The position numbers and the translations under genes are program-made. 48,148 bases of DNA from Clostridia bacterium. Its GTDB lineage: Bacteria > Bacillota > Clostridia > Christensenellales > Aristaeellaceae. Shown piece after piece: positions 18,755 through 37,381 of this stretch. Below the pieces are notes generated by a model, which had not been told where the DNA came from, did no database searches, and saw only the letters and a program-made list of their open reading frames with translations. Each line of letters opens with the position of its first letter. Within the stretch, counting starts at the first letter, position 1. The stretch lies in NCBI GenBank assembly GCA_017481825.1, contig JAFUOR010000049.1, forward strand, positions 1 through 48,148, read 5' to 3'.

Positions 18755-21700
18755 TCAGTTGTTTTCCTCCCGCACGCGGGCCAGGGCGTACTCCCGCAGG
18801 GCGGCGGCGATCTCCTCGCGCACGCTCTGGGGGATGTCCGCAGGCTCATCCTGGGGACGGCCAAGGTAGTAGCCCTGCATGTAATCCATGCCAAAGGCGA
18901 CCAGGGTTTCCATTTCACTGCGGGTTTCCACGCCCTCGCTGAGCACGGCAATGTCCTTGCGGCGGGCGTAGGAGATGAGGTTCTTGACCAGCGCCTGCTT
19001 GTCCTGATCGCTGTCCACATCGCGCACGAAGGAGATATCCACCTTCACGATATCCGCGTCGATGAGCATCAGCGCCATCTCGGAGTTGTAGCCGGTGCCG
19101 TAATCGTCGATGGCCACCTGTCCGCCGTGGCTGCGGATGAAGCTGAGCTTGCGGCGGGTGTAGGCCATGTTGTTGTCCTCGCTCTCGGTGACCTCCAGGA
19201 CCACATTGGGCAGCAGATCGCCGAAGTGCTCCACCACGTACTCCTCCTCCTCGGGGTCGAGCACCTGGTTGGCGATGGAGTTGATGAAGATGCGGGCGTT
19301 GGGCGAAAGCAGCCCGCGGTCACGCATGATGCGCACGGCGCGCAGCGTGCCGTACCAGGTCAGGCGTTCGATGTGGTGCAAAAGGCCCTGGGCCTTGGCC
19401 AGGCGCATGACGGCCATGGGGTTGCGCAGCTCCGGCACATCCGGGCGCATGAGCATCTCGTAGCCGAAGAGCTGGCCCGTGCGCGCATCGACGATGGGCT
19501 GGAAGGCAAAATGCGCCAGCTGCTTTTCGATCATCTGGTTGAGGGCCTCGCGGGCGTTGATGAGGTAGGCGTCCTCGGTGTACACTTCGCGGTCGAAGTA
19601 ATCCAGCACGCCCTTGGAGCCCTGCTTGACCTTGTACATGGCAAAGTCCGCATAATGGATGAGGGTCTTGAGATCCGTGGCGTCATCGGGGTACCAGGCC
19701 ACGCCGCCGGAGCAGCGGAAGCGGTAGAAGGAGCCGTCGGGCAGCTGAATGCCCTGCTCCATGATGCGGTGCCAGCCCTCGCTGATGACGGCGCGGCATT
19801 CCTCCTTGCTGTCAAAGCCGTAGAGCAGCACGTAGAATTCGTCGCCCGAGCGGCGGCCGCACACCGCATGGCCCAGATTCGCGTTCTCCGCCAGCGCCCG
19901 GGCGAAGGACTGGATGTAATTATCACCGCAGTCATGGCCGTAGGTATCGTTGACGAATTTCAGGTTGTCCAGGTCCATCATGAGGATGGCGCCCACCTTG
20001 AGCTGATCGCGGCGGCGGGTGAAGAGCTCCTCGGTGATGCGGGAGAAGGCGCGGCGGTTGAGCAGCCCTGTGAGGATGTCGTAATCGCGCTCGTGCTCGA
20101 TGCGGCGGCGATCCTCCATTTCGCTCGTCACGTCCATGACCGCGCCCAGCAGGCTGTAACGGTGCTGCAGCTGCACGCGGCGGATGTAGCGCTCCCGGCC
20201 CGTGCGGCTGCGCAGGAGCCACACGTCCTCGTCCACCTGATCGGTCAGCTTCTCGCGCATGATGCGGTACAGGGTGGTCTTGGGCAGCGTCTCGCCGTCG
20301 TGGGCCACGTCCTCGCAGTCCAGCAGCTGGAAGAAGCCCGAGGAGCAGTAAGCGATGTTGCTCTCGCGCTTGATCTCAAACACGCCCACCGCCATGCCCG
20401 TCAGCTGCAATATCGTGGACAGGCGCGAGGCGGATTCATACACATCGCGGGACAGCCGCTGGATGGATTCGCCCAGCTCGTCGATCTCCACCATGCCCGT
20501 GGGGGTGATGGTCAGCTCCGCCATTTCGCTGCGGCGGCGCACCTGCTCCACCATGCGCAGGATGGGCTGGGTCATGCCCCGGCTGGTGATGATCGCCACG
20601 CCCAGGCACATGAGCATCGACGTCACGCCGCCCACGATCATCAGCGTCGTGAAATGGCGCGAGAAGGTCAGCAGTGACTCCTCGCTCTGCAGGCCGATCA
20701 GCACCCATTTTTCCCCGGAATAGGCCGTTGTGGTGGGGTAGAGGTTCATGTCGATCACCGTGCCGTACACGCGCTTGCCGCTGCGGGGGCCCATGAAGGA
20801 CACGCTGTTGCCATCCGCCCATTCGTCGATGGTCATCGTGGTCTGATCCTGCCGGAAGTGCTGCTTGTAGGTCTGGCCGCTGGTCACGCCGATGCGGATG
20901 GTATTCTCCGCCATCGTGCCCAGCACGTAGCAGCCCGGCACCCGGCGGGCAAACTCGCCCTCGTTGAGCAGGCCGGAAAGGTATTCGCTGCTCAGCTCAA
21001 TGCCCACCACGCCCAACACATCGCCCGATGCGGCGAACACCGGCAGCGAGTAGGTCAGCACGCTGTCCGTATCCTCCGCCGTCATGCGCAGGGGCATCGC
21101 CCAGTAGCCGTAGTACCGCGCCTGCGTGGAGGTACCCTGCCGGGCCGCCTCCAGGGGCTTGAAGTAGTAATCCGTGTTCAGCTCCCTGGAGAAGGTGAAC
21201 GCCGCCTGCCAGGCCGTATCCAGCGGCACATCCAGCTTGCTGGACAGCGGCGGAAGCCCGCGCAGCAGTAGCAGATCGCGGTTGTTGGACGCATCCGACG
21301 TGGGATCGAAGTCCCGCAGGTGAATGCCCGCGTAGGAGTCCTTCTGTCCCGCTACGCCCTGGCCGTCCAGGATGAAGAACATGCCCGTTGTCTCCAAAGC
21401 GCGGAATTCCGAAATCAGGAAGGTCGACGCGTCCTCGACAATCGCCGCGTTGAGTCCTGCATCCGTGCGGATGGCGGAGGCATTGGCGCCCTCCAGCTGC
21501 AATCTCGCCTGGATGATCTCCGTCAGCTCCGTGCTCACGTTGGCCATCTCGTCCCACAGGTGCAGCAGATCATCCTCAAAGGGCTGCTGCTTGTTCTGCG
21601 TGCGCTCATCCAGCGTATCCAGCGCGTTCTTCTGCAACGTCGTAAACGCTCCGCCAACGGAAAGCATCACAAACAAAGCCGCCATCTCTGCTACCGCCAC

Positions 21701-21769
21701 CAGCAGCATCGGCAGCAGCAGGCGGATAAAGATGGAGCGCCGTTTCACTTGTTTCGTACGTGTGGACAT
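18755..21769 (-). CDS. Membrane Cache-HAMP-PAS-GGDEF-EAL cyclic di-GMP protein
   Basis: 1004 residues from ATG at 21769 (RBS AGGAGG). Span about 15-38, extracellular double-Cache-like sensor about 50-365, span 375-398, HAMP-like linker, PAS domain about 450-550, GGDEF domain about 560-715, EAL domain about 745-985. The GGDEF motif is SGDEF, a departure at the first Gly, and no RxxD inhibitory site precedes it. EAL residues are complete: ExLxR as EMLMR, the Asn in INSIAN, Glu in EVTES, DDYGTGYN, VKVD and SEGVET. It probably breaks down cyclic di-GMP in response to an external ligand; cyclase activity is uncertain. It lies 236 bases downstream of a solute-binding protein gene. Confidence 0.93.
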   Translation of the reverse strand: MSTRTKQVKRRSIFIRLLLPMLLVAVAEMAALFVMLSVGGAFTTLQKNALDTLDERTQNKQQPFEDDLLHLWDEMANVSTELTEIIQARLQLEGANASAIRTDAGLNAAIVEDASTFLISEFRALETTGMFFILDGQGVAGQKDSYAGIHLRDFDPTSDASNNRDLLLLRGLPPLSSKLDVPLDTAWQAAFTFSRELNTDYYFKPLEAARQGTSTQARYYGYWAMPLRMTAEDTDSVLTYSLPVFAASGDVLGVVGIELSSEYLSGLLNEGEFARRVPGCYVLGTMAENTIRIGVTSGQTYKQHFRQDQTTMTIDEWADGNSVSFMGPRSGKRVYGTVIDMNLYPTTTAYSGEKWVLIGLQSEESLLTFSRHFTTLMIVGGVTSMLMCLGVAIITSRGMTQPILRMVEQVRRRSEMAELTITPTGMVEIDELGESIQRLSRDVYESASRLSTILQLTGMAVGVFEIKRESNIAYCSSGFFQLLDCEDVAHDGETLPKTTLYRIMREKLTDQVDEDVWLLRSRTGRERYIRRVQLQHRYSLLGAVMDVTSEMEDRRRIEHERDYDILTGLLNRRAFSRITEELFTRRRDQLKVGAILMMDLDNLKFVNDTYGHDCGDNYIQSFARALAENANLGHAVCGRRSGDEFYVLLYGFDSKEECRAVISEGWHRIMEQGIQLPDGSFYRFRCSGGVAWYPDDATDLKTLIHYADFAMYKVKQGSKGVLDYFDREVYTEDAYLINAREALNQMIEKQLAHFAFQPIVDARTGQLFGYEMLMRPDVPELRNPMAVMRLAKAQGLLHHIERLTWYGTLRAVRIMRDRGLLSPNARIFINSIANQVLDPEEEEYVVEHFGDLLPNVVLEVTESEDNNMAYTRRKLSFIRSHGGQVAIDDYGTGYNSEMALMLIDADIVKVDISFVRDVDSDQDKQALVKNLISYARRKDIAVLSEGVETRSEMETLVAFGMDYMQGYYLGRPQDEPADIPQSVREEIAAALREYALARVREENN

Positions 21770-21790
21770 CACTGGTCTTTCCTCCTGTTG

Positions 21791-21981
21791 TGCCAGAGGC
21801 TCTGCCTCTGGACTCCGGCAAGGACGCTGCCCTTGCATCCCGCTTAGGGGCGCTACTCAGCATCGTCCTTCGCTTTCACCTGCGGTGAATTCCCCACTGG
21901 GGAGCCGTTCCGAACGATGTCCCCGCGAACCCCTTTTCGCGATCTTGCTTGCGCACCTTCGGTTGGGGTTGCGCGCGTGGG
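21791..21981 (-). repeat. Inverted copy of the dispersed two-module repeat
   Basis: Tandem hairpins CCAGAGG/CCTCTGG and GCAAGG/CCTTGC (21791-21836) followed by the module at 21858-21981, which matches 16116-16240 in reverse complement (TTCCCCACTGGGGA, CCCCTTTTCGC, GGTTGGGGTTGCGCGCG). It occupies most of the gap between the solute-binding protein and GGDEF/EAL genes. Confidence 0.75.
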
Positions 21982-25810: not shown

Positions 25811-25903
25811 CCATTGGAGCGCCAGGGGACGATTTTTGATTGTTTTTTCGGTGAACCGTTCGTACAAAGCGGACATTTCCTGCCCAAATCCGCCATCTGG
25901 CGC

Positions 25904-25932
25904 TTGATTTCACTGCGTAATAATGGTAGAAT
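25904..25932 (+). promoter_or_regulatory. Promoter of the exopolysaccharide operon
   Basis: TTGATT (25904-25909), 17-base spacer, TAGAAT (25927-25932) with a TGG extension. The leader to the first start codon is only about 50 bases, too short for a cyclic di-GMP riboswitch. Confidence 0.75.
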
Positions 25933-25990
25933 TAAAATGACGCGCTGTGACGAATCATCCGGCGCCCAGCACACCAGAAGGAGAACACCT

Positions 25991-27301
25991 ATGACCAAGC
26001 GCAAGCGTTCGTCCTCGTTGGATTTCCGACGATTTTCCAATGTGGCCGATTTCGCCCAGGTGATGCTCAACTATCACTTTAAGGATGCCCAGCGCCACTT
26101 TGATCATGTCAAGCACATCACCAAGCTGCTGTGCCTGCAGTATAACGACATGCACCGCGCGCATCCGCTGCCCGAGCATGATCTGATGCTGATCTTCGCC
26201 GGTGCTGCCCTGCATGATATCGGTCTGATCTCCATCCCCGACAGCATGCTCAACCACAAGGGCCCCCTGACGCCCGAGCAGCGTAAGCTCTACGAGGAGC
26301 ATGCCCGCACCGGCGCGGCGATCATCGATCAGATGGCGGGTATCTACCGCCTGTCCAGGCATGAGAAGGAAATCCTCCGCAACATCTGCCTGTACCATCA
26401 TGAGCGCTACGACGGGGGCGGCTATCCCGAAGGACTCAAGGGGGACGAAATCCCGCTGTATGCCCAGATCGTCTCCATTGCGGAGGTCTACGATTCTCTC
26501 ACCGCGGACAATTACAGCGAGCCCCGCTCCCACGAGGAGGCGATGAACCTCATCCGCCGGGGCGAGTGCGGCGCCTTCAACCCCATGCTGCTGGAGTGCA
26601 TGGAGCGGGCCTCCTGCGATATGCAGGCCCTGCTGGAATGCGCCACCAACGATGAGCGCATCACCCTTTTGCAAAACACGTACAGCATCAACCGGCGCTC
26701 CTACTGGATTCAGAAGCGGATCCTGGATGTGACCGTCTCCGCGCTGGCCCTCGTGGTGCTTTCACCCCTGCTTTTGCTTATCGCCCTGGCTGTGTTCATC
26801 GATGATCCCCACGGCAGCCCCATCTTCTGCCAGACGAGGGTCGGGCGGCATAAAAAGCTGTTTACCATCTACAAATTCCGCACCATGCATGTGGATGCGG
26901 AGGAGCGCCGGGCGGAACTGGAGACGCTCAATGAGAAGGACGGCCCGGTCTTCAAGATCGCCAACGATCCGCGTATCACGCGGCTGGGAGGCTTCCTGCG
27001 CCGCACCAGCCTGGATGAACTGCCCCAGCTCTTCAACGTCCTCAAGGGGGATATGACCCTGGTGGGCCCCCGCCCGCCCCTGCCCAGCGAGGTGGCCCAG
27101 TACAGCCGCTATGCCGAGATGCGCCTGAGCGTCACCCCGGGGCTGACCTGCATCTGGCAGGTGCAGCCTCACCGCGACGACATCCGCTTTGACCAGTGGG
27201 TGGATATGGACATCGCCTACATCGGCACCCGGTCCATGCGCCATGACCTGAAGCTGCTGTTTCAAACGGTGATGGCGGTGCTGCGCCGCTCGGGCTCCTG
27301 A
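25991..27301 (+). CDS. HD-GYP domain fused to initiating sugar-phosphate transferase (WcaJ/PglC type)
   Basis: 436 residues from ATG at 25991 (AAGGAG seven bases upstream); longer in-frame starts lack an RBS. Residues 15-215 are an HD-GYP domain: HFDHV (36-40), HD at 75-76 (ALHDIGLISIP), HH at 136-137, and DGGGYPEGLKGDEIP (141-155). HD-GYP proteins hydrolyse or bind cyclic di-GMP. Residues 238-436 are a polyprenyl-phosphate sugar-phosphate transferase: membrane segment 247-270, KFRTMH (295-300), LDELPQLFNVLKGDMTLVGPRP (341-362). This enzyme puts the first sugar on undecaprenyl phosphate at the inner face of the membrane. First gene of the operon; the fusion puts the cyclic di-GMP domain directly on the committing step. 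Both halves look intact. Confidence 0.92.
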   Translation: MTKRKRSSSLDFRRFSNVADFAQVMLNYHFKDAQRHFDHVKHITKLLCLQYNDMHRAHPLPEHDLMLIFAGAALHDIGLISIPDSMLNHKGPLTPEQRKLYEEHARTGAAIIDQMAGIYRLSRHEKEILRNICLYHHERYDGGGYPEGLKGDEIPLYAQIVSIAEVYDSLTADNYSEPRSHEEAMNLIRRGECGAFNPMLLECMERASCDMQALLECATNDERITLLQNTYSINRRSYWIQKRILDVTVSALALVVLSPLLLLIALAVFIDDPHGSPIFCQTRVGRHKKLFTIYKFRTMHVDAEERRAELETLNEKDGPVFKIANDPRITRLGGFLRRTSLDELPQLFNVLKGDMTLVGPRPPLPSEVAQYSRYAEMRLSVTPGLTCIWQVQPHRDDIRFDQWVDMDIAYIGTRSMRHDLKLLFQTVMAVLRRSGS

Positions 27302-27346: not shown

Positions 27347-28918
27347 ATGAGTAAGGTTTTTCTTGCCGCCGTGTTTGTCTTTGTCCTGTGTGGCGCGCTG
27401 CTGATCGCCATGGCGCCGGATGTGATTTCGCTGCTGTTTGTGGTGGTCATGTGCGTGATCGTGCTGCTGGGCCTTGTCTTCGGCCTGCTGCCCTGCTCCA
27501 ATTTCGGCCAGGGCTTCAAGCAGGGCCGCAGGAGCGTGCGCCGCATCGGCGGGGTCACCTCCAACGACCACTGGCTTGTGCTGCAGCAGTCGGAGCGCCT
27601 CTTTCACTACCAGCCCCTGGCGGAGCTCTTTAAGGATTACATGGAGAAGGCCAACCGCCAGTACGCCCAGGAGGAGATCATCAGCGATATCGACACCATG
27701 ATCAATGAGGACTCCCTGGCCGTGCGCTGCTGGCACAGCGCGTGTCTGCAGATTCCCGGCACCCTGACCGGTCTTGGCCTGCTGGGCACCTTCCTGGGCC
27801 TGATCCTGGGTATCTCCAGCATCGGCTTCAGCTCCGTGGATGCGGCGCTCAACAGCGTGGAGACCCTGCTGGGTGGTATTGAGGTCGCCTTCTACACCTC
27901 CGTGGCGGGCGTGATCCTCTCCATCGTCTACAACCTGGTCAACAGGCTGCTGTGGAACACCACCGTGCGCGAGATGGAACTGTTCCTCTACGATTTCCAC
28001 ACCTACATCATGCCCTCGGCCGAGGAGCAGGGCCGCGCCTTCCAGCACAGGAGCATCAAGGCCATCCTGGAGCGCCTGGACCGCCTGCCCAAGAATGGCT
28101 TTGGCGCCGCTGCTGCGCAGGAGAACGCCAAGTCCGGCAACGAGCAGTCCGTCATGCTCAAGGTGCAGGACGCCATCCGCAATGGCGAGTTCTGCTTCTA
28201 CCTTCTGCCCCGCTGCAACCTCATGAGCCGTGAGATCGTGGGCGCGGAGGCGCTGATCCGCTGGAACCACAGCGAGATCGGTCTGCTGGAGCCCTCCTCC
28301 TTCATGGATGTGGTGGAGAAGAACGGCTTCATCGCCCGGCTGGATCAGTACATCTGGGAGGAGATATTCAAGACCATCCGCGGCTGGATTGACGCCGGCA
28401 TCCGCCCCCTGCCCGTGTCGGTGAACGTCTCCGGTACGGACGTGCTGGCCTTTGACGTGCCCGCCTTCTTCAAGAAGATGCTGGAGAAGTACCGCATCCC
28501 CCCGTGCTATATTGAAATTGAAATCAACGAGACGAGTTACCTGCGCAACGGCCGCATCATTCTGGAGGCCGAGGAGGCGCTGCGTGCCCAGGGCTTCCGC
28601 GTGGTGATGGACAGCTTCGACGGCGATTTCCTGGCCGTGAGAGCCACCGGCGCCAACCCCGACGCCTACAAGCTCAGCGTCGGCAAGCAGAAGGAGAACA
28701 TCGCCCAGGTCTTCGCCCACGCAAGGGCGCAGCACATCACCCTGTGGGCCAACCGCATCGAGTCCATGGAGCAGCTGACCGAGCTGCGCCGCGCGGGCTG
28801 TGCCGAGGGCCAGGGCTATGTGCTGCATGCGCCGCTGTCGGTGGATGATTTCCTCGAGGTGACCAAGCGCAGCAAGGGCGAGAAGACCAACGCGTCCCAG
28901 ACCGCGCAGGAGAATTGA
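27347..28918 (+). CDS. MotA/ExbB-like proton-channel subunit fused to a degenerate EAL domain
   Basis: 523 residues from ATG at 27347. Four membrane spans: about 5-25, 28-48, 133-157 and 176-198, with a cytoplasmic insert between spans 2 and 3, the MotA/ExbB/TolQ/ZorA layout. The hallmark region is PGTLTGLGLLGTFLGLILGI (137-156) and GGIEVAFYTSVAGVILSIVY (176-195). An EAL domain follows at about 272-505: EALIRW (301-306), Asn in NVSG, Glu in IEINET, Lys in YKLS, Glu in RIES and QGY are kept, but DDFGTG is DSFDGD (422-427), so a metal-binding Asp and loop 6 are lost. The domain is more likely a cyclic di-GMP receptor than an enzyme. Lies 45 bases after the HD-GYP fusion and 10 before its presumed stator partner. 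Confidence 0.85.
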   Translation: MSKVFLAAVFVFVLCGALLIAMAPDVISLLFVVVMCVIVLLGLVFGLLPCSNFGQGFKQGRRSVRRIGGVTSNDHWLVLQQSERLFHYQPLAELFKDYMEKANRQYAQEEIISDIDTMINEDSLAVRCWHSACLQIPGTLTGLGLLGTFLGLILGISSIGFSSVDAALNSVETLLGGIEVAFYTSVAGVILSIVYNLVNRLLWNTTVREMELFLYDFHTYIMPSAEEQGRAFQHRSIKAILERLDRLPKNGFGAAAAQENAKSGNEQSVMLKVQDAIRNGEFCFYLLPRCNLMSREIVGAEALIRWNHSEIGLLEPSSFMDVVEKNGFIARLDQYIWEEIFKTIRGWIDAGIRPLPVSVNVSGTDVLAFDVPAFFKKMLEKYRIPPCYIEIEINETSYLRNGRIILEAEEALRAQGFRVVMDSFDGDFLAVRATGANPDAYKLSVGKQKENIAQVFAHARAQHITLWANRIESMEQLTELRRAGCAEGQGYVLHAPLSVDDFLEVTKRSKGEKTNASQTAQEN

Positions 28919-28928
28919 GGGCTGAGCG

Positions 28929-30557
28929 ATGAAGAAAAACACTGAGGAGATCAGCTACTGGCAGTCATTTACCGATATTCTCTCGTCCCTCCTGCTGGTG
29001 GTCATGCTGGTGACCGTGCTGCTGATCCTGTATCTGATGCACGCCCCGGAGGAGGAATGGACGGGCTATGGCGACTATACCGCCACGCCCGTGCTGACGG
29101 TGACGCCCGAGTTTGGCGACGGCGACTTTGACGAGGGCGACGACGGCGATGGCGGCGGCTCCTGGCACACCCCCACGCCGGAAATGTGGGTCAGCCCCAC
29201 CCCCACTGTGACCATCACGCCCACGCCCACCCCCTATAACCCGGCGGGCGGCGGCTATGGCTACGGCTATGACGAGGCCAACAAGGCCGCGGTCTACGCC
29301 ATGATTGTGGACAACGAGACCGACCGCGTCATCCCCAAGGATGGCATCATCTTCGAGCTCTTCGACGTTTCCGACGTCCGCCAGACGCTCAATACCTACT
29401 ATCCCGAAAAGGTCTGGTACCACGAGTTCACCACCACCGAGGCCGGCACCTTCTTCCTGCCGGAGAAGGTGGCCATCAAGCAGTACTACTTCCGCGCGCT
29501 CAACGCCCCCGAGGGCTATGACGACGCTGAGGATGTGTACTTCACCCTCGATGAGGCCTACGACTGGCCCGCGCCCTATGTGGTGCGCATTCCCTTTGAG
29601 CCCTCCAAGAATGTCATCAACGTCCAGATGACCGACGCGGATACCGAGGAGAACGTCGGCTACGGCACCTTCCGGGTCGTGGCGGCGGAGGATATCATCA
29701 CTCCTGACGGCACGCTGCGCTACGCCAAGGGCGAGGTGGCGGACACCATCGTCTGCGATGCGGAGGGCAAGGGCCAGAGCATCGAGCTGTACCTGGGCCA
29801 GTACACCGTGATGCAGGAGACCATCCCTGACTACTACGCCGGCCTTGCCAGCAGCGATACCGTGGATGTGCGCAAGAAGGACGCGACCTTTGACACGGCT
29901 GTGTACCTGAATTACAGCTGCCGCAAGACCGCGATGATCCTCACCGCCCGGGACGAGCTGTATCCCAACCGGGTGCTGGAGGGCGCGGAGTTCGCCGTGT
30001 ACCGCGAGGGCAGCGAACTGAACGTCCAGACCATGACCACCGACGGGCTGGGCCAGCTGATCCTGACCGACCTGGAGAAGGACAGCGTGTACCACATCCG
30101 TCAGATTTCGACGCTGGAGGATTACAACTTCCCCGAGGAGGAATACACCTTCACCGTCACCGAGCGCGGCCATATCGACGAGCAGGCCGTATCCAGCATG
30201 GATGTGAACAACTACATCGTGCGCGTGGCCTTTGCCGCAGTGGATGCGCTGATGCGCAGCAGCTTCTCGGATATCAGCATGGGTCTGTACGATGAAGCGG
30301 GCAGCCCCGTGCAGCTGTGGACGACCAGCGCCATGCGCCAGACCCTGGAGGGCCTTGCCCCCGGCAGGTACTCCCTGGTGGTGGATGGCGACATGACCCA
30401 GCAGAAGTCCGTCACCGTGGAGGATGGCGCGCAGCTGCAGGTGTATGAGTACGCCCTGTGGTCCGGCACGGATACGATCATCGTCGTGTGCGCCGTGGCC
30501 GGCCTGTGCCTGCTGATCGCCATTGTGGTGCGCGTCCGCAAGGGCAAGAAAAACTGA
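28929..30557 (+). CDS. MotB/ExbD-like N-terminal span with extracellular Cna-B/SpaA-like domains
   Basis: 542 residues. The N terminus SYWQSFTDILSSLLLVV (9-25) closely recalls the MotB plug-span region (SWxxxYADILTLLL): Asp16 stands where MotB has its proton-carrying Asp. After the span (about 17-37) comes a Pro/Thr/Gly/Asp-rich stretch (43-115, repeats of PTP and YG), then three or four beta-sandwich modules of Cna-B/SpaA type (about 120-225, 228-325, 333-430, 432-508; typical phrases GTFRVV, GAEFAVYREG, LEGLAPGRYSLVV), and a second span (515-537) with a basic tail. It has no OmpA-type peptidoglycan-binding domain, so what it pushes against or touches outside is unknown. Partner of the preceding MotA-like protein by position and architecture. 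Confidence 0.75.
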   Translation: MKKNTEEISYWQSFTDILSSLLLVVMLVTVLLILYLMHAPEEEWTGYGDYTATPVLTVTPEFGDGDFDEGDDGDGGGSWHTPTPEMWVSPTPTVTITPTPTPYNPAGGGYGYGYDEANKAAVYAMIVDNETDRVIPKDGIIFELFDVSDVRQTLNTYYPEKVWYHEFTTTEAGTFFLPEKVAIKQYYFRALNAPEGYDDAEDVYFTLDEAYDWPAPYVVRIPFEPSKNVINVQMTDADTEENVGYGTFRVVAAEDIITPDGTLRYAKGEVADTIVCDAEGKGQSIELYLGQYTVMQETIPDYYAGLASSDTVDVRKKDATFDTAVYLNYSCRKTAMILTARDELYPNRVLEGAEFAVYREGSELNVQTMTTDGLGQLILTDLEKDSVYHIRQISTLEDYNFPEEEYTFTVTERGHIDEQAVSSMDVNNYIVRVAFAAVDALMRSSFSDISMGLYDEAGSPVQLWTTSAMRQTLEGLAPGRYSLVVDGDMTQQKSVTVEDGAQLQVYEYALWSGTDTIIVVCAVAGLCLLIAIVVRVRKGKKN

Positions 30558-30581
30558 TGCAACGATAGGGAGTGAGTGTTA

Positions 30582-32000
30582 GTGAACAGTTCTTCGTCCA
30601 TTCAGCTCCGCCTGGGCGATCTGCTCCATGCGATTGCGAAGAATAAAAAGATGATCCTGATGATGACGATCGCCGGTCTGGTCATCGGTATCGCGCTGTC
30701 CGCCCTTTCCTTCCTCCGGGGGGAGATGGCCAAGCAGTACCTGATCACCGCCTCCGCGGTCATCACGTCGGAAAACGGCGGCGGCAACTATCCCGCCAGC
30801 AACGCCAGCTATCCCCGCAATGAGGATATCACCATCGCCAACAACATGGTGGATTCGGCCATCTACGTGCTGCAGAGCGATCTGTCGCTCAACACCCTGA
30901 TCACCCAGATGGACCTCATCGGCATTACCCCCAAGGATATCAGCAACAACCTGGCCCTGAAGCAGTACGGCACGACCCGCATCATCGAGATGTCGCTGTA
31001 CTGGCGCAGCGCCGAGGAGGGCGTGAAAATCCTGCAGACCCTGACCGCCCAGGCCAAGGAGCTCTTCCAGGAGACCCTGGGCATCGGCGGCATGACCGTC
31101 ATCAACGAGCCCACCTCCAAGTACCTCATCGGCGGCAGCCTCAATGCCTCCATCTGGGTGTACATGACCATGATCGGCCTGATCCTGGGCGTGTGCATCA
31201 GCGCGCTGCAGATTCTCATCCAGCCCACGCTGACCAACGTGCGCGATGTGAACACCCTCTTTGGCCTGGAGACCCTGGGCACCATCCCCGATGATGCGGG
31301 CTGGTTCGGCCAGAGCAAGGTGTCCCTGACCTCCAGCGGCGCGGGGAGCGAGATCGTCGAGGAGCTCTCCTCCACGGCGCACATCCTGCGCAACCGTCTG
31401 GGCTCGGGCGTGCACAAGTGCATCTACGTCACCTCCGCGTCCCACAACGAGGGCAAGACCGTCGTGGCGGCCAACCTGGCCGTGGCCCTGTCCGACCTGG
31501 GCTATCGCGTGCTGCTGATCGACTTCGACTTCCGCAATCCCACCCTGGGCAGCATGTTCCTGGATACGGTGGAATACGAGCGCTCCCTCAACGCGCTCTA
31601 TCGCGGCGATATCAACGAGACCGAGGCCATCACCACCCTCACGGGCTATCTGGATCTGCTGCCCACGGTGGTGGAGCGCCGCGGCATCATGATGGACGAG
31701 ACGACCATGAACCTGGTCAAGCGTCTGGCCCAGAACTACGACTACGTGCTGATGGACACCCCGCCCGTGGGCATGGTGGCCGACGCCATGAGCCTGAATC
31801 AGGTGGCCGACAGCGTGCTGTTCGTCGTGCGCTATGACTCGGCAACCATCCCCGTCATCCGTGACGCCCTGGAGCGCCTGGACAAGTCCGGCACCCGCGT
31901 GGTGGGCTGCGTGGTCAACGGCGTCTCCACCTCCAGCCGTCGCAGCGAGGATGATACGGACGCCTCCGCCCGCAAGAACGCCAAGGGCAAGAAGAAGTAA
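30582..32000 (+). CDS. Wzz-type chain-length determinant fused to CpsD-like tyrosine-kinase ATPase
   Basis: 472 residues from GTG at 30582 (AGGGAG upstream; a GTG two codons earlier is too close). Spans at about 22-43 and 190-210 enclose an extracellular Wzz domain. The cytoplasmic ATPase has Walker A SHNEGKTVVAANLA, Walker A' LLIDFDFRNP and Walker B YVLMDTPPVG. In BY-kinases this module autophosphorylates on a C-terminal tyrosine cluster and controls polymer length and export. Odd: the C terminus is polar and Lys-rich (ends NAKGKKK) with no tyrosine cluster, so the phosphorylation cycle is probably absent or acts on another protein. Confidence 0.92.
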   Translation: MNSSSSIQLRLGDLLHAIAKNKKMILMMTIAGLVIGIALSALSFLRGEMAKQYLITASAVITSENGGGNYPASNASYPRNEDITIANNMVDSAIYVLQSDLSLNTLITQMDLIGITPKDISNNLALKQYGTTRIIEMSLYWRSAEEGVKILQTLTAQAKELFQETLGIGGMTVINEPTSKYLIGGSLNASIWVYMTMIGLILGVCISALQILIQPTLTNVRDVNTLFGLETLGTIPDDAGWFGQSKVSLTSSGAGSEIVEELSSTAHILRNRLGSGVHKCIYVTSASHNEGKTVVAANLAVALSDLGYRVLLIDFDFRNPTLGSMFLDTVEYERSLNALYRGDINETEAITTLTGYLDLLPTVVERRGIMMDETTMNLVKRLAQNYDYVLMDTPPVGMVADAMSLNQVADSVLFVVRYDSATIPVIRDALERLDKSGTRVVGCVVNGVSTSSRRSEDDTDASARKNAKGKKK

Positions 32001-32026: not shown

Positions 32027-32079
32027 GCCATCGCTGATTGTCATGAGGTGTGCATGCGCCCCGGGCAATCAGCGATGGC
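32027..32079. repeat. Perfect inverted repeat of the ATCGCTGATTG family
   Basis: GCCATCGCTGATTG (32027-32040) and CAATCAGCGATGGC (32066-32079) are perfect inverted copies around 25 bases. It lies inside the exopolysaccharide operon between the chain-length gene and the polymerase gene, ending 17 bases before the polymerase start, so the hairpin could mask or tune translation. Same core as 7320-7429 and 9174-9222. Confidence 0.6.
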
Positions 32080-32096
32080 GTCAAGAGGGGATGTCC

Positions 32097-33374
32097 ATGG
32101 AAGCACGCGCAAGCAGAAAACGCAGCGCTATTGACCTGATCATTATCTTCATATTCCTCAACAGCCTTGGTTTCCCCGGCAACTACACCCGCGTCTTCGG
32201 CGAATGGCTGGGCACGGTGGTGGATTACTGCGCCTTCCTGCTGATGATCGCCGTGATGTTCATGACCAGCGCCAACAACGTGATGGATGTGGTCGTGCTG
32301 GACCTGAGGCGCAAATACATGTCCATCTATCTGCTGGTGGTGGTGCTCTTTGTCAGCTCCATGCTGGTGTCCGTCAGTCCCAGCAAACAGATCATCACCT
32401 GTGTCCGCTTTTCGGTCACGGTTTTATTCACATTGTGGCTGTGCAACCAGTTTTCATTGCAGAGCGTGCTGGAGCGCGTCTATTACGCCCAGATCATCTT
32501 CGTGGCCCTGACGCTGGTGTTCGTGCTGATTTTCCCCGCCTATGTGTACAGGGAGAGCGCCGCCTACGCCGGGGACTTCGTGGGCCTGTACTCCGCCAAG
32601 AACGGCGCGGGTACCGAGCTGGCCTTCGGCGTGATGGTGCAGGTGGTGCTGCTGCGCATGTATGCCCAGCAGAAGGCGCCTGTGTCCCGCCTGTTCATCA
32701 TCTTCCTGGGCCTGCAGACGGTGCTGCTCTTCCTGACCCACAACACCGGCTCGCTGTTCTGCCTGATGGTGCCGGTGGTGTACCTGCTGCAGCTCCAGCC
32801 CAAATGGGGCGTGTCGGGCCGTCTGCCCCTGGGGTGGATGTACGTGGTGGGCAGCGTGGGCTTCCTGATCTTCGCCCTGACCATCATTCCGCTCTTTGAG
32901 CCCCTGCTCAATGCCATCGGCAAGGACGCTACGCTCACCGGCCGCGTGCCTCTGTGGGAGGCGGCCCTGGAGCTTATCATGGGCAACAACACCATCACCG
33001 GTTATGGCTATGCCATGTTCTGGCGCGATGAGGCCGCGGTGGATCTGCTCCACAGCGCCTTTGACGAGTATTCCTTCATGGCCAGCCAGACCTCCGGCGC
33101 GCACAATGTGATTGTCGAGATGCTGCTCAATTCGGGCGTGCTGGGCGTGGGCGTGTTCTTCCTGACCACCCTGGATTCCCTCAAACGCATCCAGGAGCTG
33201 CAGGAGAACCGCTACCTGTGGTGCAGCGCGTTCATCCTCTTCTTCATGGTCTACGGCCTGACCGAGCGCGCCTTCTCCACCCATGAATTCATGACCATGT
33301 TCCTTTTCTTCGCTCTGGGCACCGCCTGCTGCAGGGAGGACGACCAGCCTGCGGAATTCCAGCATCAGGCGTAA
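32097..33374 (+). CDS. O-antigen ligase/Wzy-type polysaccharide polymerase
   Basis: 425 residues; ATG at 32097 is six bases from AGAGGGG, while the ATG at 32091 touches it. About ten to twelve hydrophobic segments and a large extracellular loop with GRVPLWEAALELIMGNNTITGYGYAMFW, the pattern of the Wzy_C/O-antigen ligase superfamily. Joins repeat units exported by the flippase into polymer outside the membrane. Sequence divergence is normal for this family, so polymerase versus ligase rests on context; no LPS genes are present. Confidence 0.85.
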   Translation: MEARASRKRSAIDLIIIFIFLNSLGFPGNYTRVFGEWLGTVVDYCAFLLMIAVMFMTSANNVMDVVVLDLRRKYMSIYLLVVVLFVSSMLVSVSPSKQIITCVRFSVTVLFTLWLCNQFSLQSVLERVYYAQIIFVALTLVFVLIFPAYVYRESAAYAGDFVGLYSAKNGAGTELAFGVMVQVVLLRMYAQQKAPVSRLFIIFLGLQTVLLFLTHNTGSLFCLMVPVVYLLQLQPKWGVSGRLPLGWMYVVGSVGFLIFALTIIPLFEPLLNAIGKDATLTGRVPLWEAALELIMGNNTITGYGYAMFWRDEAAVDLLHSAFDEYSFMASQTSGAHNVIVEMLLNSGVLGVGVFFLTTLDSLKRIQELQENRYLWCSAFILFFMVYGLTERAFSTHEFMTMFLFFALGTACCREDDQPAEFQHQA

Positions 33375-33389
33375 CAGGGGGGATTCGAT

Positions 33390-34895
33390 TTGAAAAAGCT
33401 GCTGCGAACCATGCTGGTCACAGGCGCCGCCTTCGTGGTGAACTACATGATCACGCTGGTTCTGACGCCGTTCATCACCCAAACCGTGGGCACTGCGGCC
33501 TATGGCTTTGTTTCCCTTGCCAAGAATCTGGCGCAGTATGCCACCATCATTACCCTGGCGCTCAATTCCTTTGCATCCCGTCACATCGCGGTGGCCTATC
33601 ACAACGGGGAGATGGAAAAGGCCAACACCTATTTCAGCTCCACCTTCTTTGGCGATGTACTGCTGGGCGGCGGCGTGCTGGTGGGCGCCTGCGTGGCGAT
33701 TGTGTACCTGGACCGGCTTTTCGTCATTCCGCCGGAGATTCTCTCCGATGTGCAGTGGCTGTTCCTGATCGTCTTTGTCAATTTTCTGCTGGTGACCATC
33801 TTCACGGTGTATGGCGCGGGGGCGTATATCGCCAACCGGCTGGATATCGTGGGGCTGTTCAAGCTGATCTCCTATGTGGTGGAGGCGGTGCTGCTGCTGG
33901 TCATCTACCGCCTGCTGGAGGCGCGGGTGGCCTATGTGGGCTTTGGTCTGATGGCGGCCTCGGGGGTGGTGATAGCCTCCAACGTGTGGATCACCCGCCG
34001 CTTTACGCCCCAATTGCGGGTGCGCCGCACCTCCTTCCGCCGCCAGGCCGTGAAGAAGCTCGTTGCCGACGGCGTCTGGTCCTCCGCCAATGATCTGGGC
34101 GCGCTCTTGCACAACGGCCTTGACCTGGCCATCTGCAACCTGATGCTCACGCCCCTGGCCATGGGTCAGCTGGCCATCGCCAAGAGCATCGATCTGATCT
34201 TCCACAGCCTCTATCATCTGGTGGCTCAGACCTTCCAGCCCATCTTCCTGCGCTCCTACGCTGAAAACAAGATTGACAAGCTGATGCGGGAGCTCAAGCT
34301 GTCCATGAAGCTCTCGGGCATGATGGCCAATCTGGCCTTTGCGGGCTTTGCAGCCCTGGGCATGGCGTATTACCGCCTCTGGATTCCTGGGGAGGATATC
34401 GCCCTGGTCTACCGTCTGACCGTCATCACCGTGCTCACCAGCGTGGCCAGCGGCTCCATGAAGCCCCTGTACTACATCTACACCCTCACCGTGAAGCAGA
34501 AAATCCCCTGCATGGTGACCATCGTCACCGGTGTGATGAACGTGCTGGGTATGGTGGTGCTGCTGCGTTTCACGGACATGGGCATCGATGCGGTGGTGTG
34601 GACCACGGCGGTGCTGGTGGGCTTCATCAACGTCGTTTCCAACCCGGTCTATATGGCGCATGTGCTCCATCAGCCCCTGCGTACATTCTATCCCAACATT
34701 TTGCGCAACGTGCTCTCCTGCGCCGTGCTGACGGGCCTGTTCATGGGCCTGTCCCGGCTTTACATGCCCGCTTCCTGGCCGACGCTGATCCTGTGCGTCA
34801 TTCTCTATGCCGGCATTGGCATGCTGGTGCACTTCGCCGTGGTCTTCACCCCGGAGGAGTGGCGCGAGGTGCTGCGGCCATTCAGGAAGAAGTGA
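33390..34895 (+). CDS. Wzx-type polysaccharide flippase (MOP superfamily)
   Basis: 501 residues, starting at TTG 33390 after GGGGG; no in-frame ATG is available at the conserved N terminus. Twelve to fourteen hydrophobic segments with the family's N-terminal pattern (VNYMITLVLTPFITQTVGTAAYGFVSLAKN). Flips undecaprenyl-linked repeat units to the outer face for the polymerase encoded just upstream. Confidence 0.9.
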   Translation: MKKLLRTMLVTGAAFVVNYMITLVLTPFITQTVGTAAYGFVSLAKNLAQYATIITLALNSFASRHIAVAYHNGEMEKANTYFSSTFFGDVLLGGGVLVGACVAIVYLDRLFVIPPEILSDVQWLFLIVFVNFLLVTIFTVYGAGAYIANRLDIVGLFKLISYVVEAVLLLVIYRLLEARVAYVGFGLMAASGVVIASNVWITRRFTPQLRVRRTSFRRQAVKKLVADGVWSSANDLGALLHNGLDLAICNLMLTPLAMGQLAIAKSIDLIFHSLYHLVAQTFQPIFLRSYAENKIDKLMRELKLSMKLSGMMANLAFAGFAALGMAYYRLWIPGEDIALVYRLTVITVLTSVASGSMKPLYYIYTLTVKQKIPCMVTIVTGVMNVLGMVVLLRFTDMGIDAVVWTTAVLVGFINVVSNPVYMAHVLHQPLRTFYPNILRNVLSCAVLTGLFMGLSRLYMPASWPTLILCVILYAGIGMLVHFAVVFTPEEWREVLRPFRKK

Positions 34896-36721: not shown

Positions 36722-37381
36722 ATGCCCGTTTTCATGATCTGCGCCTTTGTCCTGTGCGCGTATATGATATCCCTGCAGATGCTGGCGGATAACCCGCGCG
36801 TTGGCGGCACGCCCTCCCAGCGACGGGTGCTGTTGCTGGCGGTGACCGGCGTGCTGCTGGGTGTGCTGCTGATGTGCTGCCATGCCCTTGGCAGCTCTGA
36901 CGAGGTGCTGATGCTCCTGACGCTCCTCCTGCCCTGCGCGGCGGTGTATCTGGGCCTGCAGGGCCTGCGCCGCCATGCGGATGCCCTCAACCGCCCCATG
37001 ACGGTCCTGTTCATCCTTTCGGTGCTGGCGGTGTGCGTGGTGACGCTTTTCAGCCGCGACGGCACCAGCAGCACCAAGGTGCTCTTTGGTTTGTACAAGG
37101 TGCAGCAGGCCATCGCCACCGGCTCCTTGCAGCCCCTGGGGCATGTGGTGCAGAACATTGTGCTGTTCCTGCCCTTTGGCTTCCTGCTCACGGCGGCCTG
37201 CCCCGGCAAGCGCGGCATGCTGCTGATGGTCGTGGCCTACGGGCTGCTGTTCTCCACGGCCATTGAGTCCCTCCAGTACCTGCTGAGCATCGGCGAATGC
37301 GATCTGGAGGATATCCTGGCCAATGTCCTGGGCGCGGCTGCCGGCAGCGGTCTCATGCGCCTGTTTGTCCGAACCCGATGA
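36722..37381 (+). CDS. VanZ-like membrane protein
   Basis: 219 residues, RBS AGAGGG. Five or six hydrophobic segments; the second half carries the VanZ pattern NIVLFLPFGFLL, an Glu-Ser-x-Gln (ESLQYLL) and DLEDILANVLGAAAG. VanZ-like proteins occur in many polysaccharide clusters; their biochemical role is not settled. Confidence 0.85.
   Translation: MPVFMICAFVLCAYMISLQMLADNPRVGGTPSQRRVLLLAVTGVLLGVLLMCCHALGSSDEVLMLLTLLLPCAAVYLGLQGLRRHADALNRPMTVLFILSVLAVCVVTLFSRDGTSSTKVLFGLYKVQQAIATGSLQPLGHVVQNIVLFLPFGFLLTAACPGKRGMLLMVVAYGLLFSTAIESLQYLLSIGECDLEDILANVLGAAAGSGLMRLFVRTR

Follow-up and report, generated by a model that had tools for sequence, protein, structure and literature searches.

A putative stator-type complex in a polysaccharide operon of Clostridia, with an EAL domain, a Cna-B-type ectodomain, and a Wzz-like neighbor

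Introduction

What would a pair of MotA- and MotB-like genes do in an operon for a surface polysaccharide? The question is raised by a stretch of 48,148 nucleotides from a member of the Clostridia (family Aristaeellaceae; assembly GCA_017481825.1, contig JAFUOR010000049.1), which we refer to as the window. To our knowledge, it is still open how polymers of the Wzx/Wzy pathway are driven outward and given their length, and what form of energy this consumes; the known control is by cycles of tyrosine phosphorylation. An earlier note, made from the DNA sequence without database searches, had placed at 27347..30557 two genes for a MotA/ExbB-like protein with an EAL domain and a MotB/ExbD-like protein with Cna-B-type modules. 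The note proposed that they form a proton-driven machine, gated by cyclic di-GMP (c-di-GMP), that may drive or gate export, shedding, or surface arrangement of the polymer.

Both open reading frames are at this location, and the operon is a polysaccharide operon, as the note had said: matches to Bac_transf, Wzy_C, and Polysacc_synt surround the pair. We found that the two genes belong to a conserved unit of three, whose third member is a fused Wzz/BY-kinase-like ATPase (BY, bacterial tyrosine). Our tentative answer, on which we are nearly evenly divided, is that the pair may be a stator devoted to the Wzx/Wzy pathway, which would energize or gate the Wzz-type co-polymerase and would be switched by c-di-GMP where the EAL domain is kept. 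Loci (L) and genomes (G) are referred to by our own numbers, and papers are cited by their PMC numbers.

Results

The channel half of gene 1

Gene 1 (27347..28918, forward strand) begins with the ATG at 27347 and encodes 523 amino acids. It is followed after 10 bases by gene 2 (28929..30557, forward strand), which encodes 542 amino acids. As judged from Pfam, PADLOC, and a structural model, gene 1 combines a MotA/ZorA-type four-helix channel subunit (residues 1–230) with a degenerate EAL domain (about 265–500). The channel part matches Pfam's MotA_ExbB (E = 3.9e-8, 33.5 bits versus a cut-off of 22.9), as do the proteins of L044, L091, and L092, and PADLOC identifies residues 22–202 as ZorA1 (E = 1.1e-17). 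Searches of NCBIfam, which were not limited to defense proteins, listed ZorA models for the channel part, although none reached its cut-off; models of MotA, TolQ, or ExbB were absent at E ≤ 1. A profile built from 13 rows of the MotA part matched 6 distinct sequences of the PDB at E ≤ 0.01 (best E = 8.5e-16): 4 are named ZorA and 2 are named MotA/TolQ/ExbB proton channel domain-containing protein.

As predicted by AlphaFold for a single chain, the protein of gene 1 has long helices at residues 3–21, 26–68, 136–157, and 164–220, followed by an EAL-type fold (mean predicted local distance difference test score, or pLDDT, of 81.0; predicted template modeling score, or pTM, of 0.52). All 50 of the Foldseek matches listed for this model are EAL structures, and the top one is bound to c-di-GMP. 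Within the channel, the polar pore positions T148 and S185 of the third and fourth spans are invariant in all 18 aligned rows, and both residues are also found in L091 and L092. In ZorAB, the aspartate of ZorB packs onto a ring of serine and threonine residues from ZorA (PMC11890865).

A MotB-like protein with a doubly anchored ectodomain

Gene 2 encodes a MotB/ZorB-type protein, as indicated by matches to ZorB1 and SpaA, the structural model, a conserved Asp16, and a C-terminal helix. The protein has a transmembrane helix with Asp16, a linker rich in proline, threonine, and glycine (about 40–118), prealbumin/Cna-B modules (about 119–510), and a C-terminal transmembrane helix (513–540) with a basic tail. 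Residues 3–39 match ZorB1 (PADLOC, E = 1.5e-6), and the ZorB profiles cover only about residues 2–42. The prealbumin-like SpaA modules match with E = 4.9e-18 (Pfam). AlphaFold's single-chain model agrees with this layout, with helices at 10–37 and 513–540, a low-confidence stretch at 39–114, and beta modules (pLDDT 79.9, pTM 0.58), and Foldseek relates the model mostly to Gram-positive surface proteins and pilins.

Asp16 is present at 21/21 loci (the window, 18 others of the family, and two from outside the family, L091 and L092). The C-terminal hydrophobic helix and basic tail are present in all 20 complete copies (18 in the family alignment, L091, and L092). No peptidoglycan-binding (OmpA-type) domain matched gene 2 of the window at E ≤ 1 (Pfam). 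We also considered a sortase-anchored pilin or adhesin and dropped it: the only match to an LPXTG-type sorting signal in the window protein is to the NPQTN type and is below the cut-off (E = 0.026, 14.3 versus 24.5 bits, NCBIfam), and no sorting motif is visible by eye in the C-termini of the MotB-like homologs. Given this topology, both ends of the MotB-like protein would be cytoplasmic, with the Cna-B-type modules outside and held at both ends. We know of no MotB, ExbD, TolR, or ZorB with such a double-anchored build.

Taken with the channel half of gene 1, these results make it very probable that the gene pair encodes a stator-type complex, driven by ions, of the same kind as MotA/ZorA with MotB/ZorB. 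Much of what the earlier note had read from the sequence holds up, namely the MotA/ExbB superfamily core, the MotB-like helix with Asp16, and the Cna-B-type ectodomain in place of a peptidoglycan-binding domain. The note had suggested a search for MotA_ExbB, and this profile did match above its cut-off. It had also listed flagellar stators, Tol/Ton, Zorya, and gliding motors as relatives. The superfamily is right, but the closest matches are ZorA and ZorB, not flagellar MotAB or ExbBD.

The third gene of the unit

Immediately downstream lies the gene for the fused Wzz/BY-kinase-like ATPase (30576..32000, forward strand), which we assigned from Pfam, NCBIfam, and its position next to gene 2. 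It matches AAA_31 (E = 1.9e-13) and, weakly and below the cut-off, Wzz (E = 0.005); NCBIfam's eps_fam tyrosine autokinase also matches below its cut-off (E = 1.8e-28).

The arrangement of the unit is constant. The MotB-like gene is right after the MotA-like gene at 21/21 loci (the same loci as for Asp16), and the Wzz-ATPase gene directly follows the MotB-like gene at all 20 loci with enough contig. In these counts, L052 ends inside gene 1, L042 and L052 are too short to include the Wzz-ATPase, and L039 has only its start. So the pair described by the earlier note does persist as neighbors, which the note had proposed to check in homologs, but the conserved unit has three genes, with the ATPase as a fixed third. 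The note mentioned neither this gene nor the second membrane helix of gene 2.

Most of the ATPases have lost features of a tyrosine kinase. In Wzc, autophosphorylation of the tyrosine-rich C-terminus causes the octamer to fall apart, and cycling between these states has been proposed to regulate polymerization and translocation (PMC8285477). A C-terminal tyrosine cluster is missing from 18 of the 19 complete copies. There is no tyrosine at all after the ATPase core in 16 of the 19, including the window's copy, and L048 and L051 have scattered tyrosines there, at most 1 per 20 residues. The Walker A lysine is replaced by arginine in 5 of the 19 copies and by valine in 1. Pseudokinase variants of BY-kinases have been described, and EcpK is one of these (PMC12004946). 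Some of the ATPases also have low-complexity tails of 390–495 residues, made of acidic repeats in L048 and of repeats rich in lysine, alanine, and proline in L038, L040, and L041.

The EAL domain is probably a c-di-GMP receptor

The EAL domain of gene 1 is a strong match (Pfam, E = 1.3e-34), and DSFD at residues 422–425 replaces DDFG. The aspartates of DDFG are metal ligands (PMC7148300). The second aspartate is absent from all 18 aligned fusion proteins (serine in 4, glycine in 14). As controls, we used 40 EAL loci, where this aspartate and the other catalytic positions that we compared are always kept (40/40); these controls are high-scoring matches of the same searches, so they lean canonical, and one gene is counted twice (L002 and L070). 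Also, the glutamate of EGVE is replaced by asparagine in 4 of the 18 fusion proteins, which are the window's and three close relatives.

The residues that would contact the ligand are retained. The FimX-type c-di-GMP contacts L303, R305, D333, and E472 and the motif residue E301 are present in 18/18 fusion proteins, and position 491 is tyrosine or phenylalanine in 18/18. (The contact positions are from PMC3527489 and were transferred using our own alignment of spacing and motifs.) Because catalytic residues are lost while ligand contacts are kept, the EAL domain resembles a receptor rather than an enzyme, and we think that the EAL domain of the fusion family is probably a c-di-GMP receptor. 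We dropped the idea of an active phosphodiesterase, as the full set of metal-binding and catalytic residues appears to be incomplete in 18/18. There is precedent for a degenerate EAL protein encoded in a polysaccharide operon: in the exopolysaccharide operon of Lactobacillus, such a protein is a c-di-GMP receptor (PMC6123363).

Control by c-di-GMP is not part of the core, because the MotA-like protein of L091 (271 residues) has no EAL domain and the EAL domain of L092 is eroded, with only the arginine remaining of the six positions. We therefore view the EAL domain as an add-on, by which one family has probably gained control by c-di-GMP, and the core as broader than the c-di-GMP link. The earlier note's reading of DSFD as a degenerate, receptor-type EAL domain agrees with our comparison, and the cyclic di-GMP link that it drew is probable for the fusion family but is not a trait of the core.

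The window's own genome encodes GGDEF domains, so c-di-GMP can plausibly be made: there are 6 matches, 5 of them over the cut-off, and two of these 5 are apparently in one protein. At 18755–21838 of the window (reverse strand), 5.5 kb upstream of the pair, is a gene for a GGDEF-EAL protein of 1027 residues, whose motifs are SGDEF and DDYG. This protein could supply or remove the operon's c-di-GMP. We saw no c-di-GMP riboswitch: in the window and 5 other loci, there was no match to any Rfam family at the gathering threshold.

Distribution and selection

Among 300 genomes from the family (the window's own included), fusion proteins from 19 other genomes in 5 genera head the matches listed when sorted by E-value. 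The copies in G189 and G226 are cut off by contig ends. Not all of the family's loci are independent, as L034 and L035 are close to each other and so are L038, L040, L041, and L042. A scan of a genome collection with gene 1 gave only L033, which is on the same contig as G276's copy and is not an independent case.

More broadly, the sample from the order had matches to the fusion profile at E ≤ 1e-60 in 14 of 296 other genomes (aside from the own copy), but all of those listed start at profile position 206 or later and are EAL domains without the channel. In the sample from the class, the MotB profile (E ≤ 1e-25) matched 6 of 340 other genomes. Four of these matches cover part of the ectodomain only, and two are nearly full length, in G887 (positions 95–567 of 571) and G581 (115–568); we read the N-terminal helices of these two separately. 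The MotA profile (E ≤ 1e-18) matched 2 of 335 other genomes from the class, again G581 and G887. (The class-wide samples for MotA and MotB were searched separately and largely overlap.) The MotB profile had no matches in 347 other genomes sampled from the phylum.

For five pairs of loci, the ratio of nonsynonymous to synonymous substitution rates (dN/dS) ranged from 0.04 to 0.33 across both parts of gene 1 (MotA and EAL) and the MotB-like gene, including its first 40 codons. We computed these values with our own script (Nei-Gojobori type), and they are rougher for the more distant pairs. Given the homologs of the fusion protein in 19 other genomes and these low ratios, the pair is not a chance arrangement. 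The protein distance matrices agree with each other across 16 loci (Mantel r of 0.83–0.96, which was reached in 0 of 999 permutations), though vertical descent alone would give the same result.

Gene neighborhoods

The gene just upstream of gene 1 (25814..27301, forward strand; the true start is perhaps the ATG at 25991) joins an HD-GYP-type domain, which resembles c-di-GMP phosphodiesterases, to the operon's initiating sugar-phosphate transferase, with Pfam matches to HD_5 (E = 4.7e-25) and Bac_transf (E = 3e-65). It has the HHE..DG.GYP motif, and the lysine after HDIG is replaced. This fusion is found at 5 loci (the window and L034–L037); in L040 and L041, an HD-GYP open reading frame stands by itself about 9 kb upstream, and L039, L044, L048, and L092 have the transferase part only. 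Downstream of the unit, the window encodes a Wzy-type polymerase (32043..33374, forward strand; Wzy_C, E = 6.9e-11) and a Wzx-type flippase (33390..34895, forward strand; Polysacc_synt, E = 8e-11). Of the 16 loci whose contigs continue far enough, all but L051 have a Wzy match downstream of the unit (15/16).

VanZ-family genes are often nearby as well. The window has one at 36722–37381, and 14 of the 19 family loci that we fetched have a tblastn match (the weakest of these are at 44 bits, and the gene in L051 is on the opposite strand). We used an automatic map of the neighbors to place only a few genes, as GC-rich DNA gives long antisense open reading frames.

At L091 (4895–12997), the EAL-less unit is just downstream of a possible seven-transmembrane histidine kinase gene (below Pfam's cut-off) and a gene for a LuxR-type response regulator. 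These two-component-like neighbors may replace c-di-GMP control.

The window's own genome, which is listed as 91% complete, has two matches to MotA_ExbB: gene 1 and a ZorA-like gene on contig 124. The latter is paired with a ZorB-like gene that has an OmpA domain (L053, 9928–12530). No flagellar stator was found by this search of the 91%-complete genome.

Discussion

A possible mechanism

From homology, we would expect two MotB-like helices inside a ring of five MotA-like subunits. Ions would pass at Asp16 and the Ser/Thr ring, and the MotA ring would turn or flex against the MotB pair. The MotB-like pair would not grip peptidoglycan but would carry a row of Cna-B-type modules outside, and the second helix would pin it in the membrane. 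The motion would be handed to the adjacent Wzz/ATPase, where it would replace or assist the tyrosine phosphorylation cycle that assembles and disassembles classical Wzc. Growth of the polymer chain and its release at the surface would thereby be driven or gated. In the main lineage, the EAL domain on each MotA-like tail would be the c-di-GMP receptor that switches the motor.

We counted the loss of the tyrosine cluster in 18/19 partners and of the Walker A lysine in 6/19, while Asp16 is invariant, in favor of a link between the stator and Wzz. Coupling of the stator to Wzz or the polymer is a real possibility that we are not yet inclined to believe outright. Clostridia are not known to have an outer membrane. 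The boldest version, in which a proton- or sodium-driven, c-di-GMP-switched motor with the doubly pinned Cna-B ectodomain as its output arm directly powers the Wzz-type co-polymerase in these single-membrane bacteria and takes over the role of Wzc's tyrosine phosphorylation, seems doubtful to us.

Several observations count against the proposed motor for polymer export. The 5:2 assembly and ion flow are taken from homology, the AlphaFold models are only of single chains (pTM of 0.52 and 0.58), and the assignment of gene 1's channel half came from sequence and not from the fold search. The Wzz gene may always be adjacent because of mere co-expression; contact between the proteins is our inference. 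The Walker A lysine is retained in 13/19 partners, including the window's, and the partner at L091 has 4 tyrosines within 20 residues just past the ATPase core, so tyrosine phosphorylation may persist there; both of these speak against a complete takeover of the phosphorylation cycle everywhere. As for the c-di-GMP switch, two lineages (L091 and L092) lack a usable EAL domain, and the active-site Glu392 is replaced by aspartate in 3 of the 18 fusion proteins, so ligand binding may vary. Finally, we compared 6 further neighbors at L091 to Pfam and found no sugar gene among them; two resemble a two-component system. A Wzx/Wzy polymer may thus not be the unit's cargo at every locus.

Alternative explanations

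Signals might instead flow inward. The Cna-B ectodomain could be a sensor of the polymer, the wall, or a surface, and a mechanical signal from it could reach the EAL domain and Wzz-ATPase through the stator-like core, with ion flow powering or conditioning the sensing and not export. The long linker and modular ectodomain would suit a tether or strain gauge, a degenerate EAL domain fits signaling, and contact of ZorB with peptidoglycan is the proposed trigger of Zorya (PMC11890865). However, the ectodomain is tethered at both ends with no evident free binding tip, and L091 and L092 keep the other parts of the unit although their EAL domain is absent or eroded, respectively. We consider such a sensor unlikely, if worth keeping in mind. 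The double tether also argues against a motor for surface distribution or cell movement, which would not act on Wzz but would drag the ectodomain, and through it the polymer, along the wall. Agl-Nfs is a precedent for this (PMC3858216), the MotB-like protein does bear surface-type modules, and in the incomplete own genome only gene 1 and the ZorA-like gene match MotA_ExbB. But the fixed neighbor is the Wzz-ATPase, and we recognized no Glt- or Nfs-type gene among the ten window proteins that we compared to Pfam, which makes this explanation improbable.

Or the channel could be dead or idle, with the pair as a membrane scaffold for the EAL domain and Wzz that has no ion-driven motion. Ion flow in our proposal does rest on homology, and the EAL domain is itself a worn enzyme. 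Yet the invariant positions include those of the channel, while the linker, the EAL catalytic site, and the Walker A motif drift, so an idle channel seems quite improbable. Least probable by far is that a Zorya-like module for phage defense has landed in a polysaccharide locus by chance. In sequence, the two channel parts come closest to ZorA and ZorB, but the peptidoglycan-binding domain of ZorB was not found, an EAL domain stands in place of the long tail of ZorA, and the context is Wzx/Wzy, with a Wzy match downstream at 15 of the 16 loci that extend far enough. Moreover, Pfam showed no ZorC-, ZorD-, or ZorE-type gene among the same ten window proteins (PADLOC covered five proteins, three of them from the unit).

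Relation to known systems

The Agl motor of Myxococcus is of the MotAB/TolQR type, and we know of no EAL fusion or Cna-B modules in it. It has many Glt and Nfs partners, in contrast to three genes in Clostridia here. What it shares with the motor that we propose is service to a surface polysaccharide: together with Nfs, Agl moves the spore-coat polymer (PMC3858216). The closest likeness in sequence is to the Zorya core ZorA5B2 (PDB 8QYD and kin), which gave the best profile matches and shares with our pair the four-helix core of ZorA, the GTF motif in the third span, and the single-aspartate helix of ZorB. But in Zorya, ZorB carries a peptidoglycan-binding domain and the cytoplasmic tail of ZorA is long (PMC11890865), where our proteins have Cna-B modules with a second transmembrane helix and an EAL domain.

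The third gene, for a fused Wzz/BY-kinase-like ATPase, resembles Wzc, CpsC-CpsD with its BY-kinase, and EcpK; pseudokinase variants have been described (PMC12004946). It differs in that 18/19 copies have no tyrosine cluster and in its fixed stator pair, which we did not find reported in the literature searched. Like FimX, LapD, and PdeB from Lactobacillus, the EAL domain has lost catalytic residues and kept ExLxR and other ligand contacts, but here the degenerate domain is fused to an ion-channel subunit. YcgR and MotI, which are brakes on flagellar stators, also bring c-di-GMP to bear on a MotA protein (PMC12564702). For our pair such an effect is only predicted; YcgR and MotI are separate PilZ proteins, whereas here the receptor-type domain is inside the MotA-like chain.

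Among the openly available journal papers that our literature searches listed, we found no description of a MotA-EAL fusion, a MotB-Cna-B protein, or the whole combination. A term search of the available text of a paper on the evolution of MotAB (PMC12505986) gave no occurrence of EAL, c-di-GMP, polysaccharide, or fusion, and the excerpts of a paper on twisted-stalk genes (PMC8250860) contain nothing on a motor.

If our proposal is correct, then an ion motor with a pseudokinase-like co-polymerase would be a second energy source for Wzx/Wzy polymers, and this could be tested by mutating a single aspartate. It would extend the MotA/TolQ/ExbB kind of machine to the export of surface sugars in Clostridia, and it would be a case of a c-di-GMP receptor that is built into a stator subunit.

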